Source of the DNA: Pseudoxanthomonas sp. CF385 | Lineage (GTDB): Bacteria > Pseudomonadota > Gammaproteobacteria > Xanthomonadales > Xanthomonadaceae | Direction: 5' to 3' | DNA length: 64,000 bases | NCBI RefSeq assembly: GCF_900104255.1 | Contig: NZ_FNKZ01000001.1 | Coordinates: 2,138,001-2,202,000, forward strand | Shown: in pieces, positions 6,872 to 11,911 of the stretch | Layout: each line of letters opens with the position of its first letter | Numbering within the stretch: the stretch's first letter is position 1 | Translations under genes and position numbers: made by a program | Notes under the pieces: model-generated | Database searches by the model: none | The model's input: the letters and a program-made list of their open reading frames with translations, nothing else | Told to the model about the DNA's origin: nothing

Positions 6872-7080
6872 GAGGGCCGGGCGGAACGGAAGCGCCCGCG
6901 GGTTACGGCCACGGCAACTCCCTATATTTCAGTCACATGCGGCGTGCGGACGAGCGGCACGCGGGTAAACGAAAATTTAACGTCCGTGCCGGAAACGGCT
7001 AACGAATGCTGTGGGAGTGTGACCCCCGTCGCTTTTCAGGGCTTCCCCTGGGCTCCGGAGCGGCCACAAGGAGAACCACT

Positions 7081-8610
7081 ATGTGCATTCGCAAGACACT
7101 GATCGCATCAGCCGTATTGCTGGCGCTCGGAATGACGGGACAGGCGTTCGCCCAGCAGACCAACACGGAGAATGGAACCGGAGACGACATCCTCGTCAAT
7201 CTCTCCGCCGACCTGAGCAACAACAGCACCAACACCGATAGCTCGGACAATTCCGACAACAGCGACAACTCCGACAATTCGGACAACAGCGACAACAGCA
7301 CGCACGACGGCGACAACCGCAACAACCGCGGGCGCGCCAATGCCGAGGGTTACGGATCGACCGCCGCCAACAACGGCAGCACCGCGACTTCGACCTTCTC
7401 CAACTCCTTCAACCACAGCAAGGCCGTGGCCGAAACGCGGCTCGAAGGCAGCGTTTCGGGCGTGACCGTGTATGGCATCGGCAACGTCGCCCAGAATTGG
7501 GGCAATGCGAACGGCGGTGACGGCGGACGTGGTGGCGCGGGTTACGGCGGGCGTGGCGACGGCGGCTCCGCGGCCGGCGGTACCGGCAACGGTGGCGACG
7601 GTGGCGATGGCGGCAACGGCGGAAGCGGCGGAAGCGGCGGCGACGCCAACAACGGCAGCGCGACCGCAGGCGATTCCTCCAACGGCAGCGCGACGATCGG
7701 CGATGCGACGGCCGGCAACGGCGGACGCGGCGGCAACACCGACGACACGCGCGGCGCGAACGGCGGCGACGCCGGTGGCTGGGGCGGCGACGGCAACTCC
7801 ACGGCCGGCAACGGTCGCGGTCGCGGCGGCGACGCCGGCGGCTGGGGCGGCGACGGTGGTGGCGCCAGTGGCGCATCCGGCGGCGACGCCGGCAGCGCGA
7901 GCGGCGACACGGGCTCGATCGCGGGCGCATCCGGCGGCGACGCGGGTGCCGGCAGCGGCAACGTGCGTGAACGCGGTGCCGGCGACGGCACGAGCGGCGA
8001 CGGCACGGCGACCGGTGGCGCAGGCACGTCGGGTGACGCGACCTCGACCGGCGGTGCGAGCACCGCGACGGCAGGAGCAGGCACGTCCGGCGACGGCACC
8101 GGCACCGGTGGTGACGGTTCCGGCACGGGCGGCGCGGGCAGTGGCACGGGCGGCGACGCCACGTCCACGGGCGGCGCAGGCTCCGGTACCGGCGGCGCAG
8201 GCGGCACGCTGACCGCGACCGCAGGCAACGGCGGCGATGGCGGCGCGGCCACCAACGGCGACGCCACCAACGGCGGCGCATCGTCGAGCGCCAGCAATGG
8301 CGATGCGACGGCCGGCGACGGCGCGAGCGGCGCGATCGGCGCAACCGGTGGTGCGGGCGGCGTCGGCAACGGCGGCGACGGCAACGGCGGCGACGGCAAC
8401 GGAGGCGTCGGCAATGGCGCAACCGGCGGTGCGGGCGGTACGGGCGGTGCGCTCACCGTCGACGCCGGCACGTTCGACATGTCCAACAACATGACGAGCG
8501 TCGGTCAGTCCGCAGCCGGCATCATGGTGGCCGCGCAGAACAGCGGCATGGCCTCGCTGATCCAGCAGGGCATCACCGTGCAGGCCAACCTGTCCGTAGG
8601 CGGTCCATAA
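7081..8610 (+). CDS. Secreted Gly/Asn/Asp/Ser-rich low-complexity protein, candidate fibre (amyloid-like) subunit
   Basis: The product is 509 aa. The ATG at 7081 follows an AAGGAGA site; an in-frame extension to 7006 precedes the signal peptide and is discounted. A Sec signal peptide ends QAFA-QQ near residue 24. Then come a short Asn/Ser/Asp segment with six DNS tripeptides in tandem, a segment with ordinary composition (AEGYGSTAANN to IGNVAQNWGNAN), about 330 residues dominated by Gly, Asp, Ala, Asn, Thr and Ser (GGDGGxGG, GTGGAGS units), and a distinct C-terminal 45 residues with the pattern QNSGMASLIQQG and a final GGP. This C-terminus resembles that of the protein at 8725-9147. From its operon partners (C39 peptidase, FapF-like barrel) I infer an exported structural fibre protein playing the part of FapC, but the central repeat is unlike Pseudomonas FapC. 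An RTX-like or silk-like surface protein is the alternative. Confidence 0.75.
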   Translation: MCIRKTLIASAVLLALGMTGQAFAQQTNTENGTGDDILVNLSADLSNNSTNTDSSDNSDNSDNSDNSDNSDNSTHDGDNRNNRGRANAEGYGSTAANNGSTATSTFSNSFNHSKAVAETRLEGSVSGVTVYGIGNVAQNWGNANGGDGGRGGAGYGGRGDGGSAAGGTGNGGDGGDGGNGGSGGSGGDANNGSATAGDSSNGSATIGDATAGNGGRGGNTDDTRGANGGDAGGWGGDGNSTAGNGRGRGGDAGGWGGDGGGASGASGGDAGSASGDTGSIAGASGGDAGAGSGNVRERGAGDGTSGDGTATGGAGTSGDATSTGGASTATAGAGTSGDGTGTGGDGSGTGGAGSGTGGDATSTGGAGSGTGGAGGTLTATAGNGGDGGAATNGDATNGGASSSASNGDATAGDGASGAIGATGGAGGVGNGGDGNGGDGNGGVGNGATGGAGGTGGALTVDAGTFDMSNNMTSVGQSAAGIMVAAQNSGMASLIQQGITVQANLSVGGP

Positions 8611-8619
8611 GCGCTCCAA

Positions 8620-8650
8620 GGATGCCCTGGCCCTCGTGGCCGGGGCATCC
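8620..8650 (+). terminator. Intercistronic hairpin after the major subunit gene
   Basis: Ten bases after the stop codon, GGATGCCC (8620-8627) pairs with GGGCATCC (8643-8650), and inside it GGCC (8629-8632) pairs with GGCC (8638-8641), leaving a 5-base loop. There is no T-run, so it is more likely an mRNA-protecting or partial-termination hairpin that lowers expression of the downstream genes relative to the major subunit gene than a full terminator. Confidence 0.55.
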
Positions 8651-8724
8651 GGCGCGGACGCCCGCGTCCCCCATGACGGGACGCTGCCTGACTGCGCGGG
8701 AACGCATGGCAAGGGAGATTGACC

Positions 8725-9147
8725 ATGCTTACGCATCAACGAGCAAGACTGTGCCTGGTGGTTGCGGGCGCATGCGCCATCGCACCCGCGGCGTGGGCCG
8801 CGGACATCGCGGTGAAAACCGCGCCGCTGCAGCCGCCCGTCATCGAACCCGCACCGTTGCAGGTGCCGTTCAAACCGGTCAGTGAACTGGGACGCACGAT
8901 CGATCCGGGACGGCTGGCAGGCCTCCGCGGGGGCGACGGCACGCAGGTGGAGAACCTGGTCGACGTCGACGGTTCCGTGGACGGCAACACGGCGCATCAC
9001 GTGACGACCGGCACCAACAGCGTCGCCGATGGCGCGTTCAACAACGCCAGCGGCATCAACACCGTCATCCAGAACACCGGCAACAACGTGCTGATCCAGA
9101 ACGCGATGATCGTCACCGTCGATTTCACCGGCGGCGGTCCGCCGTGA
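8725..9147 (+). CDS. Small secreted protein with double-glycine motif, candidate minor fibre subunit/nucleator
   Basis: The product is 140 aa. The ATG at 8725 follows AAGGGAG; the TTG two codons upstream is ignored. A signal peptide ends AWA-AD near residue 26. A proline-rich stretch follows, then DPGRLAGLRGG (residues 60-70), which matches DPARLAQMRGG in the protein at 9844-10347 and looks like a C39 double-glycine leader. The mature part contains QNTGNNVLIQN and ends GGGPP, like the C-terminus of the 7081-8610 protein. It overlaps the C39 peptidase gene by 4 bp. I infer a peptidase-processed minor component (FapB-like role); no family name is claimed. Confidence 0.72.
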   Translation: MLTHQRARLCLVVAGACAIAPAAWAADIAVKTAPLQPPVIEPAPLQVPFKPVSELGRTIDPGRLAGLRGGDGTQVENLVDVDGSVDGNTAHHVTTGTNSVADGAFNNASGINTVIQNTGNNVLIQNAMIVTVDFTGGGPP

Positions 9148-9842
9148 AGGTACGACCACGCCATGGGCTGCGATGCCTCGCCCTGGCATGCGCCTTCGTG
9201 GTGCTGGGCGGCGCGTCGGCGGCCAACACCGACCTGCGCATTCCCTACGGCGGCTACCAGATACGCCTGACCAGCCTGAAGGAAGCACGGTTCAAGACCA
9301 CGCTGCCGCAGCAGTACGACTTCAGCTGCGGCTCGGCCGCGACCGCGACCCTGCTGACGCACCAGTACGGCCACCCCGTCAGCGAGGTGGATGTCTTCGT
9401 GCAGATGTACAACAACGGCGACCAGGCGAGGATCCGCAAGGAAGGCTTCTCCCTGCTCGACATGCGTCGCTACCTGCGCTCCAAGGGCTACGAGGCCGAT
9501 GGTTTCGAGTTGCCGCTGGACAAGCTGCAGGAGGAGAACGTCCCGGCGATCGTACTGCTCAACGATCGCGGCTACCGCCACTTCGTCGTCGTGAAGGGGC
9601 TGCGCGATGGTCGCGTGCTGCTCGGCGATCCCGCGCGGGGCACGCGGGCCATGCCGCGCTCGCGCTTCGAGGCGCTGTGGGACAACCGGGTGATGTTCGT
9701 CGTCCACAACCGGCGGGAAGAAGCCCGCTTCAACCAGGCCCGCGACTGGCAGACCGCACCTCCGGCGCCGCTCGACATGGGAATCCAGCGCGACGGCCTG
9801 CGCAACATCACCGTGCCCCGGCGCGGACCAGGAGACATCTGA
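9144..9842 (+). CDS. Periplasmic C39-family cysteine peptidase (FapD-like)
   Basis: The product is 232 aa. The GTG start at 9144 overlaps the previous stop (GTGA), implying translational coupling. A signal peptide (about 1-27) puts the enzyme outside the cytoplasm, unlike C39 domains of bacteriocin ABC exporters. The catalytic pattern is intact: oxyanion Gln (Q56/Q57) and Cys62 in QQYDFSCGSAA, His146 in YRHFVVVKG and Asp162 in LGDPARG. Stand-alone exported C39 peptidases of this kind are known as FapD in Pseudomonas functional-amyloid operons. The two neighbouring small proteins with RGG motifs are the likely substrates. Confidence 0.88.
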   Translation: MKVRPRHGLRCLALACAFVVLGGASAANTDLRIPYGGYQIRLTSLKEARFKTTLPQQYDFSCGSAATATLLTHQYGHPVSEVDVFVQMYNNGDQARIRKEGFSLLDMRRYLRSKGYEADGFELPLDKLQEENVPAIVLLNDRGYRHFVVVKGLRDGRVLLGDPARGTRAMPRSRFEALWDNRVMFVVHNRREEARFNQARDWQTAPPAPLDMGIQRDGLRNITVPRRGPGDI

Positions 9843-9843
9843 C

Positions 9844-10347
9844 ATGGACAGGATCCGACACCCCGCATGGCGGGTCGCGCTGCTGGCGGCCGTGCTGCTC
9901 GCGCCGTCCGGTGCGCGGGGGCAGGGCGGCGAGCTCGGCGTGGAATGGCGTCCGGTGGACCCGGCACGCCTGGCGCAGATGCGCGGCGGCTTCCAGATGC
10001 CCTCGGGCATGATGCTGTCGTTCGGCATCGAGCGCGTGGTCTATCTCAACGGCGAGGTCACCGCGCGCATCGCCGTGCACGTGCCCGACGTGGCCCGCAT
10101 CACCCCCGCGCAGGCCCAGTCGCTGGCCGACTTCAACCGCGGACTGGTGGTGCAGATCGGGGAGGGCAACCGCTTCGACCCCGCGCAGATCGCCGGCGGC
10201 ATCGTCATCCAGAACTCGCTCGACGACCAGGACATCCGCACGCTCACGCGGGTGGAAGTGGGCACCGACACGCTGGGTGCATACCAGGACCTGAACGCCA
10301 ACGGCGCGCTGACCGACGCGTTGCTGCGCGCACCCGGCGGGCCGTGA
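9844..10347 (+). CDS. Small secreted protein with double-glycine motif, second candidate minor subunit
   Basis: The product is 167 aa, starting 2 bp after the peptidase gene behind a GGAGA site. A signal peptide ends near residue 26 (ARG-QGG). DPARLAQMRGG occupies residues 39-49 and matches the motif in the 140-aa protein. The mature part starts FQMPSGMMLSF, contains GGIVIQNSLDDQDIRTLTRVEV and ends GGP, echoing the tails of the two other secreted proteins of the operon. Role inferred: exported accessory or minor fibre component (FapE-like position in the operon). No known family recognised. Confidence 0.7.
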   Translation: MDRIRHPAWRVALLAAVLLAPSGARGQGGELGVEWRPVDPARLAQMRGGFQMPSGMMLSFGIERVVYLNGEVTARIAVHVPDVARITPAQAQSLADFNRGLVVQIGEGNRFDPAQIAGGIVIQNSLDDQDIRTLTRVEVGTDTLGAYQDLNANGALTDALLRAPGGP

Positions 10348-10396
10348 ACGGCGCGCGCTTCACCCAGGCAGGACTCACCCATACAAGGGGAACACC

Positions 10397-11911
10397 ATGA
10401 AAGGGACGTCGTTGATCGAGGTGGCACCGCTCGCACTGGCCGTAGGATTGGGCGTGGCGGGGCAGGCGAGGGCACAGGAGCCGCTCGGCGTCGTGCCGAT
10501 ACCGGTGGCGGAATCGCCGCCCGTTCCCCTGCAACCGTACGAGATCACCGCCGACGCCCGCCTGGACGCGTTGCAGCGGCAGCTCAACGAGCAGACGCAG
10601 CGCCTGGAACAGATGCGCACGCTGATGCAGGCGCAGGAGCAGCAGATCTTCAACCTGCAGAATGCGCTCAACGATGAGGTGCTCGCCAACGCGCGCGCGC
10701 GCGGTGCTCCGGCACCGGTGATCGTGCCTTCGCTCAACCAGGCACCCACCTTCCGCGACGTTCCACCCTCGCAGCCGTATGTCGTCGTGGGCCCGGCGCC
10801 GCAAGCGGTCATGCAAGCGCAGGACACTCCGTCTGCGCAGGTCTACGCACAGTCCGCAGCCCCGCAGCCACACCAGGCGACGCAATCCCAGGGTGCGCAG
10901 ACCGCACAGGCGCAAGCGCCCGAGCGCGTCGGCCAGGCGCCGGAAAGCGACTCCCGGCCACCGGAAGTGGCGCAGATCTTCGACCAGCCCGGCGTGCTGA
11001 CGCCCAAGGGCAAACTCGTGCTGGAGCCCTCGCTGCAGTACGGCTACTCGGCCAACGACCGCGTGGCGTTGGTGGGCTACACGATCATCCCGGCCATCCT
11101 GATCGGCCTGATCGACGTGCGCCAGGTGAAAACGACCACCGCGGTCGCGACGCTGACTGGCCGCTATGGCGTCAGCCGGCGGATGGAAGTGGAAGCCAAG
11201 CTGCCCTACGTCTACATCCACAGCGACACGGTGAGCCGCGAGATCTTCACCGGCTCGGCGCAGGACCGCGTGTTCAACGCACGCGGCAGCGGCATCGGCG
11301 ACGTTGAAATCACTGGACGCTACCAGCTCAACCGCGGCGGCCCCGACAAACCCTTCTACATCGCATGGCTGCGCTACAAGAGCCGCACCGGAAAGGACCT
11401 GTTCGAAGTGACGACGGACTGCGTGACGCGCTGCGTCGCGAACACCACCGGTACGGGCCTGCCGTTGGACCTGCCCACCGGCAGCGGCTTCAATGCCGTG
11501 CAGCCGGGCCTCACCTGGCTGTACCCGTCCGACCCGGTCGTGTTCTTCGGCAGCCTGAGCTACCTGCACAACTTCAAGCGCAGCGACGTATCGCGGCGCG
11601 TGCTGGGCGGGCAGACGGAATTCCTCGGGGACATCAAGGCCGGCGATATCCTGGGCTTCAACCTCGGCATGGGCCTGGCCCTCAATGAGAAGGCTGCCAT
11701 CAGCATCGGCTACGACCAGAGCATCGTCGACAAGACCAAGCAGGACGGGCGGGAAGTCGCCGGCGCCGTGCGCACCACCCTGGGCACGCTGTTGCTGGGC
11801 GGCACGTACCGCTTCAGCGACCGCACGTCGCTCAACGTTGCGTTGGGTGTCGGCGTCACCCGCGACACGCCGGACCTGACGTTCACCGCGCGGCTGCCGA
11901 TCAGCTTCTGA
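10397..11911 (+). CDS. Outer-membrane beta-barrel transporter with N-terminal coiled coil (FapF-like)
   Basis: The product is 504 aa, with the ATG at 10397 behind AAGGGGA. A signal peptide ends near residue 26 (ARA-QE). Residues about 52-90 form a heptad-like coiled coil (LDALQRQLNEQTQRLEQMR and onward), followed by a Gln/Ala/Pro-rich linker (about 90-190) and then a barrel domain opening with GVLTPKGKLVLEPSLQYGY and ending in Phe (ARLPISF), the usual outer-membrane assembly signal. Coiled coil plus linker plus about 300-residue barrel is the architecture of FapF, the Pseudomonas amyloid exporter. As last gene of the operon it is the predicted secretion pore for the fibre proteins. Confidence 0.82.
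   Translation: MKGTSLIEVAPLALAVGLGVAGQARAQEPLGVVPIPVAESPPVPLQPYEITADARLDALQRQLNEQTQRLEQMRTLMQAQEQQIFNLQNALNDEVLANARARGAPAPVIVPSLNQAPTFRDVPPSQPYVVVGPAPQAVMQAQDTPSAQVYAQSAAPQPHQATQSQGAQTAQAQAPERVGQAPESDSRPPEVAQIFDQPGVLTPKGKLVLEPSLQYGYSANDRVALVGYTIIPAILIGLIDVRQVKTTTAVATLTGRYGVSRRMEVEAKLPYVYIHSDTVSREIFTGSAQDRVFNARGSGIGDVEITGRYQLNRGGPDKPFYIAWLRYKSRTGKDLFEVTTDCVTRCVANTTGTGLPLDLPTGSGFNAVQPGLTWLYPSDPVVFFGSLSYLHNFKRSDVSRRVLGGQTEFLGDIKAGDILGFNLGMGLALNEKAAISIGYDQSIVDKTKQDGREVAGAVRTTLGTLLLGGTYRFSDRTSLNVALGVGVTRDTPDLTFTARLPISF

Follow-up and report, generated by a model that had tools for sequence, protein, structure and literature searches.

The locus at positions 7081 to 11911 of a 64,000-nucleotide stretch of Pseudoxanthomonas sp. 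CF385 (contig NZ_FNKZ01000001.1; the whole stretch is called the window here) raises the question of whether its five genes form a fibre-export system of the Fap type, known as fapABCDEF from Pseudomonas and relatives, and of what the peptidase encoded among them cuts. Five co-directional open reading frames (ORFs) are present on the + strand, encoding a Gly-rich main protein, a small secreted protein, a C39 peptidase, a second small secreted protein and a barrel protein. This is the operon that the original prediction had described, and the gene letters A, B, D, E and F have been assigned here by analogy with Fap naming. All five products start with a Sec-like signal, as judged by eye. The predicted lack of a separate FapA-like gene agrees with the gene listing of the operon, which was the only basis of comparison as no FapA profile was run; absence of FapA is a common variant of Fap systems (PMC6173800, PMC3792158). 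The operon is probably a Fap-type fibre-export system of a clade that is sister to canonical Fap, in which D would cut the leaders of B and E.

The original prediction placed the locus correctly as Fap-like and overlooked its most informative feature, a double-glycine leader that follows the Sec signal in both B and E. Aligned orthologues share the consensus [VI]xxxxLxx[LM]RGG. The RGG is invariant in 41/41 B and 41/41 E orthologues, window included, as is the Leu of the -7 column. The published C39 leader code is L(-12)xxxE(-8)L(-7)xxxxG(-2)G(-1), with a helix from -10 to -4, positions -7 and -12 in a hydrophobic knot and position -4 giving specificity (PMC6959990). The leaders of B and E are in this register, having hydrophobic residues at -12, -7 and -4 and the Gly pair at the end. 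A strict pattern, [VILMT]x4[LIM]xx[LMIV]RG[GRK] within residues 20-130, is found in 41/41 E and 39/41 B, and in 6 of 1,857 Sec-like controls, which are ORFs, not verified genes, taken from the opposite strand or from outside the operon. Shuffling of the protein bodies gave the pattern in 16 of 8,200 cases for E and 4 of 8,200 for B. It is absent from A (0/39), D (0/41) and F (0/41). From these sequences we infer that B and E are the predicted substrates of the operon's own peptidase.

The peptidase itself is of the expected kind. D matches Peptidase_C39 in Pfam (74 bits) and its nearest NCBIfam model is FapD (133.4 bits, cut-off 330), followed by FilB (118.6 bits, cut-off 475); models of bacteriocin ABC transporters are matched less well, over their peptidase segment. 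Its closest PDB entry by profile is 6mpz, a double-glycine motif protease. The structure model has a mean pLDDT of 74.8, about 90 in the core, and Foldseek relates it to ComA, to 6mpz with its leader peptide and to PCAT1 with substrate. The catalytic Q56, C62, H146 and D162 are invariant across 25 and across 32 sequences. D therefore has the character of FapD, an exported C39 peptidase, and shares fold, catalytic residues and leader code with the C39 domains of the bacteriocin ABC transporters ComA, LahT (6mpz) and PCAT1. These likenesses, with the leaders on two small secreted proteins, could be taken to indicate a bacteriocin or microcin system with B and E as its peptides. This is very improbable, however, as the five proteins have no permease or ATPase match in Pfam or NCBIfam and the peptidase is separate and Sec-exported, with Sec signals on the predicted substrates as well. 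Furthermore, the exporter is FapF-like, E is found in several families and so, in part, is B, and B shares a repeat with A.

In a sequence search of the PDB, FapF is the sole match to F below an E-value of 1 (4.6e-32, residues 183-503). The NCBIfam scores are 161.6 bits for FapF (cut-off 700) and 51 for FilC (cut-off 630). The model of F (mean pLDDT 71.6) has a 50-residue helix at 52-101 and then strands over 207-499, and Foldseek places FapF chains first (2e-22, target TM 0.83), followed by COG4313 (6e-12); the alignment behind the model is of FapF relatives, and homology is thus already built into this fold match. Judged by sequence and model, F is a FapF-like protein with the FapF-type outer-membrane barrel. 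An unrelated uptake porin, with coincidental neighbours, could be suggested by the Pfam match of F to Phenol_MetA_deg at 23.4 bits, just over the cut-off of 22. That explanation is scarcely credible, since profile, sequence and fold all bring F much nearer to FapF and relatives of B, D and E are retained beside the barrel in 40/40 loci.

These loci come from 297 genomes of the window's family, its own genome counted, in which barrel matches were classed by identity and counted by hand. At least 120 of the genomes have a match. Among the matches listed, an orthologous barrel (identity of at least 60%) is found in 57/297, own genome included, and a more distant relative (25-33% identity) in at least 78, with at least 15 genomes having both types by identity alone. 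Neighbourhoods were sampled at 40 of the 56 other orthologue loci and at 20 of the 78 distant loci. By BLAST, relatives of B, D, E and F are present in 40/40 orthologue neighbourhoods and a relative of A in 38/40, the exceptions being L067 and L085. The operon with its five genes is confirmed as a conserved unit, not a chance arrangement, because 57/297 genomes have the orthologous barrel and the partners are kept in the 40 fetched loci. The A-B-D-E order is also present in L252 and L264. The peptidase and barrel taken in the original prediction to be FapD-like and FapF-like are nearest to FapD and FapF in the profile searches; neither an unrelated porin barrel nor a failure of the partners to co-occur was encountered. 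In the 20 distant loci the relatives of D are 35-47% and those of F 24-32% identical by BLAST, and those listed resemble canonical fap operons, with genes that we take, from their sequences, to encode FapA, FapB/C-repeat, FapD, FapE and FapF proteins. F is the only clear FapF relative in its own genome, the second match having an E-value of 0.0014. Seven FapD-family peptidase matches were found in a single genome, G341.

The open display of the leader code in the operon's clade led to the same leader being uncovered in Pseudomonas FapE. A survey was made of 180 loci with a FapD-family gene (the window, 60 from its family, 40 from its class and 79 named loci), in which the motif-bearing ORF was preferred where several could be E. 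A regular expression (regex) finds the leader in the gene after D in 155/180 loci, ending in RGR (82), RGG (52), RGK (11), SGK (6), TGK (2), SGR (1) or QGK (1). There is no regex match in 19/180; in five of these (L142, L168, L170, L181 and L183) position -4 is Gln or Thr and RGR or RGK is present. No E was called in 6/180, including L190 and L143 that nevertheless show a leader. In loci L190-L242, mostly Pseudomonas (n=53), there are 49 RGR, 2 RGK and 2 without a called E. The 49 RGR loci, which were chosen for RGR, conserve D30 (100%), E32 (98%), L36 (96%) and L33 (92%) in L206 numbering. The Pseudomonas FapE leader reads like LKDQELANLRGR with YVM after the site, which is the C39 code with Arg as its last residue. 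Canonical FapE thus ends its leader in Gly-Arg or Gly-Lys, Pseudomonas included. E aligns with canonical FapE by hhalign at 3.5e-6 over 31 columns, all of them within or around the leader. Match-column alignments, which also include the signal peptide, give 2.3e-6 for E with FapE and 2.3e-8 for E with B, each unequalled in 100 column shuffles (0/100); an unfiltered shuffle control exceeded the observed score in 2/100 for both pairs, and these high scores are put down to gap-rich columns. Because canonical FapE has the same leader, we infer that it is a FapD substrate, in Pseudomonas too.

FapD, on which Fap export depends, is periplasmic, and its active-site Cys is needed for FapC secretion (PMC5557850). 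Its target was described as one that 'remains unclear' in 2017 (PMC5557850) and is 'yet to be determined' in 2018 (PMC6173800), while a 2025 review has FapD as 'thought to process' FapE and FapF (PMC12822426). The 2017 paper states that Fap proteins lack canonical C39 sequences, and also points out GG and GA motifs in FapE, which it suspects to be the target (PMC5557850). FapE had therefore been under suspicion already, and what is added here is a defined leader and the sister clade. A search of the open-access literature, which did not extend to subscription papers or preprints, gave no account of this branch or its leaders.

The last leader residue of E divides according to the peptidase. 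A tree was made of 117 peptidase cores, thinned by hand by locus number from the 180. One clade of 54 rows from ten families (support 100/98), which contains the window, has GG in E in 52 rows with 2 uncalled; another of 49 rows (support 99/93), canonical Fap, has R or K in 46 with 3 uncalled. The last residue, G or R/K, tracks the peptidase clade in every called case. Among the uncalled rows L143, in the GG clade, shows RGG and L190, in the R/K clade, RGR; no E leader was found for L134. In this tree the operon's clade is the sister of canonical Fap, and the distinct branch proposed in the original prediction is a well-supported one. The remaining 14 rows are outside both clades and are without a leader-bearing E gene. 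FapD-family peptidases outside the two clades include L149, L150 and L152-L158, and in most of these a FapF-like barrel comes next, with no E gene that bears a leader.

A held-out set of 20 regions in 18 genomes was taken from a phylum-wide search (38/398 genomes positive). Each D was assigned to a clade by profile score alone and E was then read, motif-bearing ORFs being preferred. Of 21 complete D genes, L254 is identical to L168 and was left out, giving n=20, with 42-84% identity to the nearest training sequence. RGG was found in 12/12 of those predicted to be GG (10 at the first reading, 2 at the second), and R or K in 8/8 of those predicted to be R/K (7 by regex and L260, MHGK, by eye). 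The clade therefore predicts the last residue of E in 20/20, although the genes are not all independent, two of the 12 GG being tandem copies and some genomes sharing a genus. Such a rule is co-inheritance along one deep split, and as a sequence pattern it supports a matched pair of D and E. Four residues of D differ between the GG and R/K clades, at positions 119 (D/R), 140 (N/D), 64 (S/A) and 58 (Y/T). The split is near-complete at 119 (Asp versus Arg) and 140 (Asn versus Asp). All four are no more than candidate residues of the pocket that would take the last residue of the leader.

The main protein A is 30.8% Gly, followed by Ala (13.9%), Ser (10.8%), Thr (10.0%), Asn (9.2%) and Asp (8.3%), and its length varies among orthologues. 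The earlier description as Gly/Asp/Ser-rich is right for Gly and not for Asp, which has Ala, Ser, Thr and Asn ahead of it. A was also described as not FapC-like, which needs some change, A and B each having a probable Fap-like repeat at the C-terminus, one in each protein being picked up by the repeat pattern. By hhalign the C-termini of A and B align at 1.1e-6 within the window's own family, and the clade-wide repeats at 1.5e-12. The repeat of B aligns with canonical Fap repeats at 1.4e-4, gap-free over 33/36 columns (7.3e-4 with the whole of B), and the clade-wide repeats of A do so at 4.1e-5; the repeats were picked by regex and these E-values are for single comparisons. Each of the A-B, A-Fap and B-Fap alignments was unmatched in shuffles (0/100). 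Homology of the A and B repeats to those of Fap is therefore likely, not proven, on this sequence evidence.

An A-like upstream protein with the conserved C-terminus was found by regex in 43/54 GG-clade loci, truncated contigs or residue variants accounting for the six misses in the window's family. Beyond that family the candidates in the clade range from 2 to 30% Gly, so that a Gly-rich main protein does not mark the branch as had been proposed. Nor is it a trait of the window's family alone, which is ruled out by the Gly-rich candidates of L136 (28%), L251 (30%), L252 (26%) and L253 (23%). The composition of A does lend some weight to the less probable reading that the cargo of a Fap-type exporter here is a Gly-rich surface coat or adhesin and not amyloid. 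Gly makes up 43% of a 315-residue stretch of A, and one repeat was detected in the protein, where canonical FapC mostly has three (PMC12392863). On the other hand, a Fap-like repeat has been kept in both A and B and the remaining machinery is Fap-like.

Several results weigh against a Fap-type system with D cutting B and E. The NCBIfam equivalog cut-offs for FapD and FapF are not reached, for which reason the operon is filed as a sister variant and not as Fap proper. The bare RGG tripeptide is common out of register, in 30/39 A and 30/41 F. Past the leader, E aligns poorly with FapE (0.018). The HH probability of the repeat match to Fap is 53% for B and 70% for A, and the own-family A repeats alone give a non-significant 0.15. 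Lys or Arg at the last leader position (P1) is unusual for C39 enzymes. The change between G and R/K is shared ancestry and not repeated co-evolution. In class-level loci the B site is RGG in L136 and is often not GG elsewhere, being SGR in L133 and L138, RGR in L137, RGT in L124, RAK in L134 and RGM in L143. In the held-out GG loci B has RGG in 6/11 (L250-L253, L264 and L267), and no B was picked up in the remaining 5/11. Whole-cell tryptic mass spectrometry (MS), as reported in PMC5557850, gave no FapE peptides from about the first 70 residues, a gap that reaches past the proposed site at about residue 39. In an L206-type FapE the site is followed by a 6-residue tryptic peptide (40-45), with the next cut at Lys79-Pro80 or Lys89. 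Reckoned on this FapE, and not on that of strain UK4, a cut at 39 is compatible with the published gap but not proved by it.

The variable Gly pair of B in the wider clade and the Arg or Lys of canonical FapE could also be explained if the leader-like helix were an uncut docking or targeting signal, for D as a chaperone or for F, with D acting elsewhere, for instance on the F linker, the cutting of which in FapF is discussed in PMC5557850. This is rather improbable. The catalytic Cys of FapD is required (PMC5557850), the strict motif, found in 0/41 F, does not favour F as the target, and a Gly pair invariant in 41/41 B and E is more than docking alone would require.

Under the favoured Fap-type reading, all five proteins would enter the periplasm through Sec. 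D, as a periplasmic double-glycine peptidase, would dock on the RGG-ending helix of B and E, take leader residues -12, -7 and -4 into its groove and cut after the second Gly. A trimeric F barrel would then let the unfolded, matured subunits out. A, Gly-rich and with one C-terminal repeat, would be the main fibre outside the cell and B, also with one repeat, a minor or nucleating subunit, while E, like FapE, may license export or tie the fibre to F.

More tentatively, the Fap family as a whole could run on a periplasmic 'safety catch', with FapD as a free-standing leader peptidase and FapE and the GG-clade B as pro-proteins whose leader blocks nucleation or pore engagement until it is cut. The canonical site would be LxxxELxxLRG[RK], with [FY] after the cut, and would have gone unnoticed because it does not end in Gly and because trypsin cleaves at the residue in which it does end, which leaves tryptic MS unable to distinguish processing from digestion. 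With the canonical site present in two of its proteins, the sister clade hints at the puzzling target of the Fap protease and gives a residue-level, directly testable prediction for Pseudomonas FapE. A second, widespread Fap-type clade may have escaped the survey in PMC12392863, which required a FapBC-repeat model.

Fap and the operon are alike in the FapD-like exported C39 peptidase, the FapF-like barrel with a long predicted periplasmic helix, the protein at the FapE position with the same leader, the repeat-bearing secreted subunits and the gene order of subunits, D, E and F. They differ in that the operon is in the sister clade, its E leader ends in GG and not GR or GK, its second subunit B has a leader of its own, no separate FapA-like gene is seen in the gene listing, D and F are below the NCBIfam cut-offs, and A has its single detected repeat and Gly-rich body in place of the mostly three repeats of FapC (PMC12392863).

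The Fil system is one of Acinetobacter. Its FilB and FilC, a 'putative pilus' in NCBIfam, likewise pair a C39 peptidase with a FapF-related barrel. D scores lower with FilB than with FapD, and F lower with FilC than with FapF, neither Fil cut-off being reached. Fil as the parent family is thus unsupported by the scores, the comparison being with NCBIfam profiles and not with authentic Fil loci. Two FilB-like genes, both below the cut-off, were found in a 60-genome search; one (G303, which is L155) is in the outgroup without a leader-bearing E gene.

The features of the operon are listed in Table 1. B and D overlap by 4 bases and D and E are separated by 1 base. Gene A has an alternative in-frame ATG at 7006, and gene D starts with GTG. 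No sigma-70 promoter and no terminator on the operon strand were found around the operon, which is uninformative.

Table 1. Positions in the window of the genes and predicted features of the operon
Feature	Positions	Strand	Remarks
Gene A, candidate fibre subunit (FapC position), secreted Gly-rich main protein	7081..8610	+	509 aa from ATG 7081
A residues 141-455, low-complexity stretch, 43% Gly	7501..8445	+	
A residues 466-504, conserved C-terminal repeat	8476..8592	+	homologous to B repeat; across the clade, weak homology with canonical Fap repeats
Gene B, small secreted protein, candidate nucleator (FapB-like)	8725..9147	+	140 aa; leader and one Fap-like repeat
B residues 59-70, double-glycine leader IDPGRLAGLRGG	8899..8934	+	predicted cut after Gly70
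B residues 100-132, Fap-like repeat	9022..9120	+	
Gene D, exported C39 cysteine peptidase, FapD-like	9144..9842	+	232 aa; Gln56, Cys62, His146, Asp162 invariant
Gene E, small secreted protein	9844..10347	+	167 aa; at the FapE position, with a leader of the FapE type
E residues 38-49, double-glycine leader VDPARLAQMRGG	9955..9990	+	predicted cut after Gly49
Gene F, outer-membrane barrel, FapF-like	10397..11911	+	504 aa
F residues 52-101, predicted periplasmic helix (coiled coil)	10550..10699	+	structure model
F residues 207-499, predicted beta-barrel strands matching FapF	11015..11893	+	structure model, sequence, fold

Halomonas, Methylotenera and others have, upstream of FapD, a further small secreted protein with a leader of this same type, such as LDDTALETIRGR or VEDSELHEISGK (L164, L165, L167, L171, L185, L187, L130, L139 and L151); it is possibly another substrate. 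A VILWDE-like motif is found in this protein in L130, L139, L151, L164, L168 and L187. Pseudomonas FapA (L190, L193 and others) has a leader-like mid-protein stretch, ELSDxD[FI]xxI[ST], followed by GG, GS or SG. FapA, with this looser motif (LSDSDFANITGG and variants) in the middle of the protein, was considered as the origin of the B leader, which is not claimed, FapA being unprocessed according to the MS reported in PMC5557850.

A gene for a protein that resembles, by eye, a sigma-54 activator is located beside the barrel or the operon in L128, L136, L137, L139 and L168.

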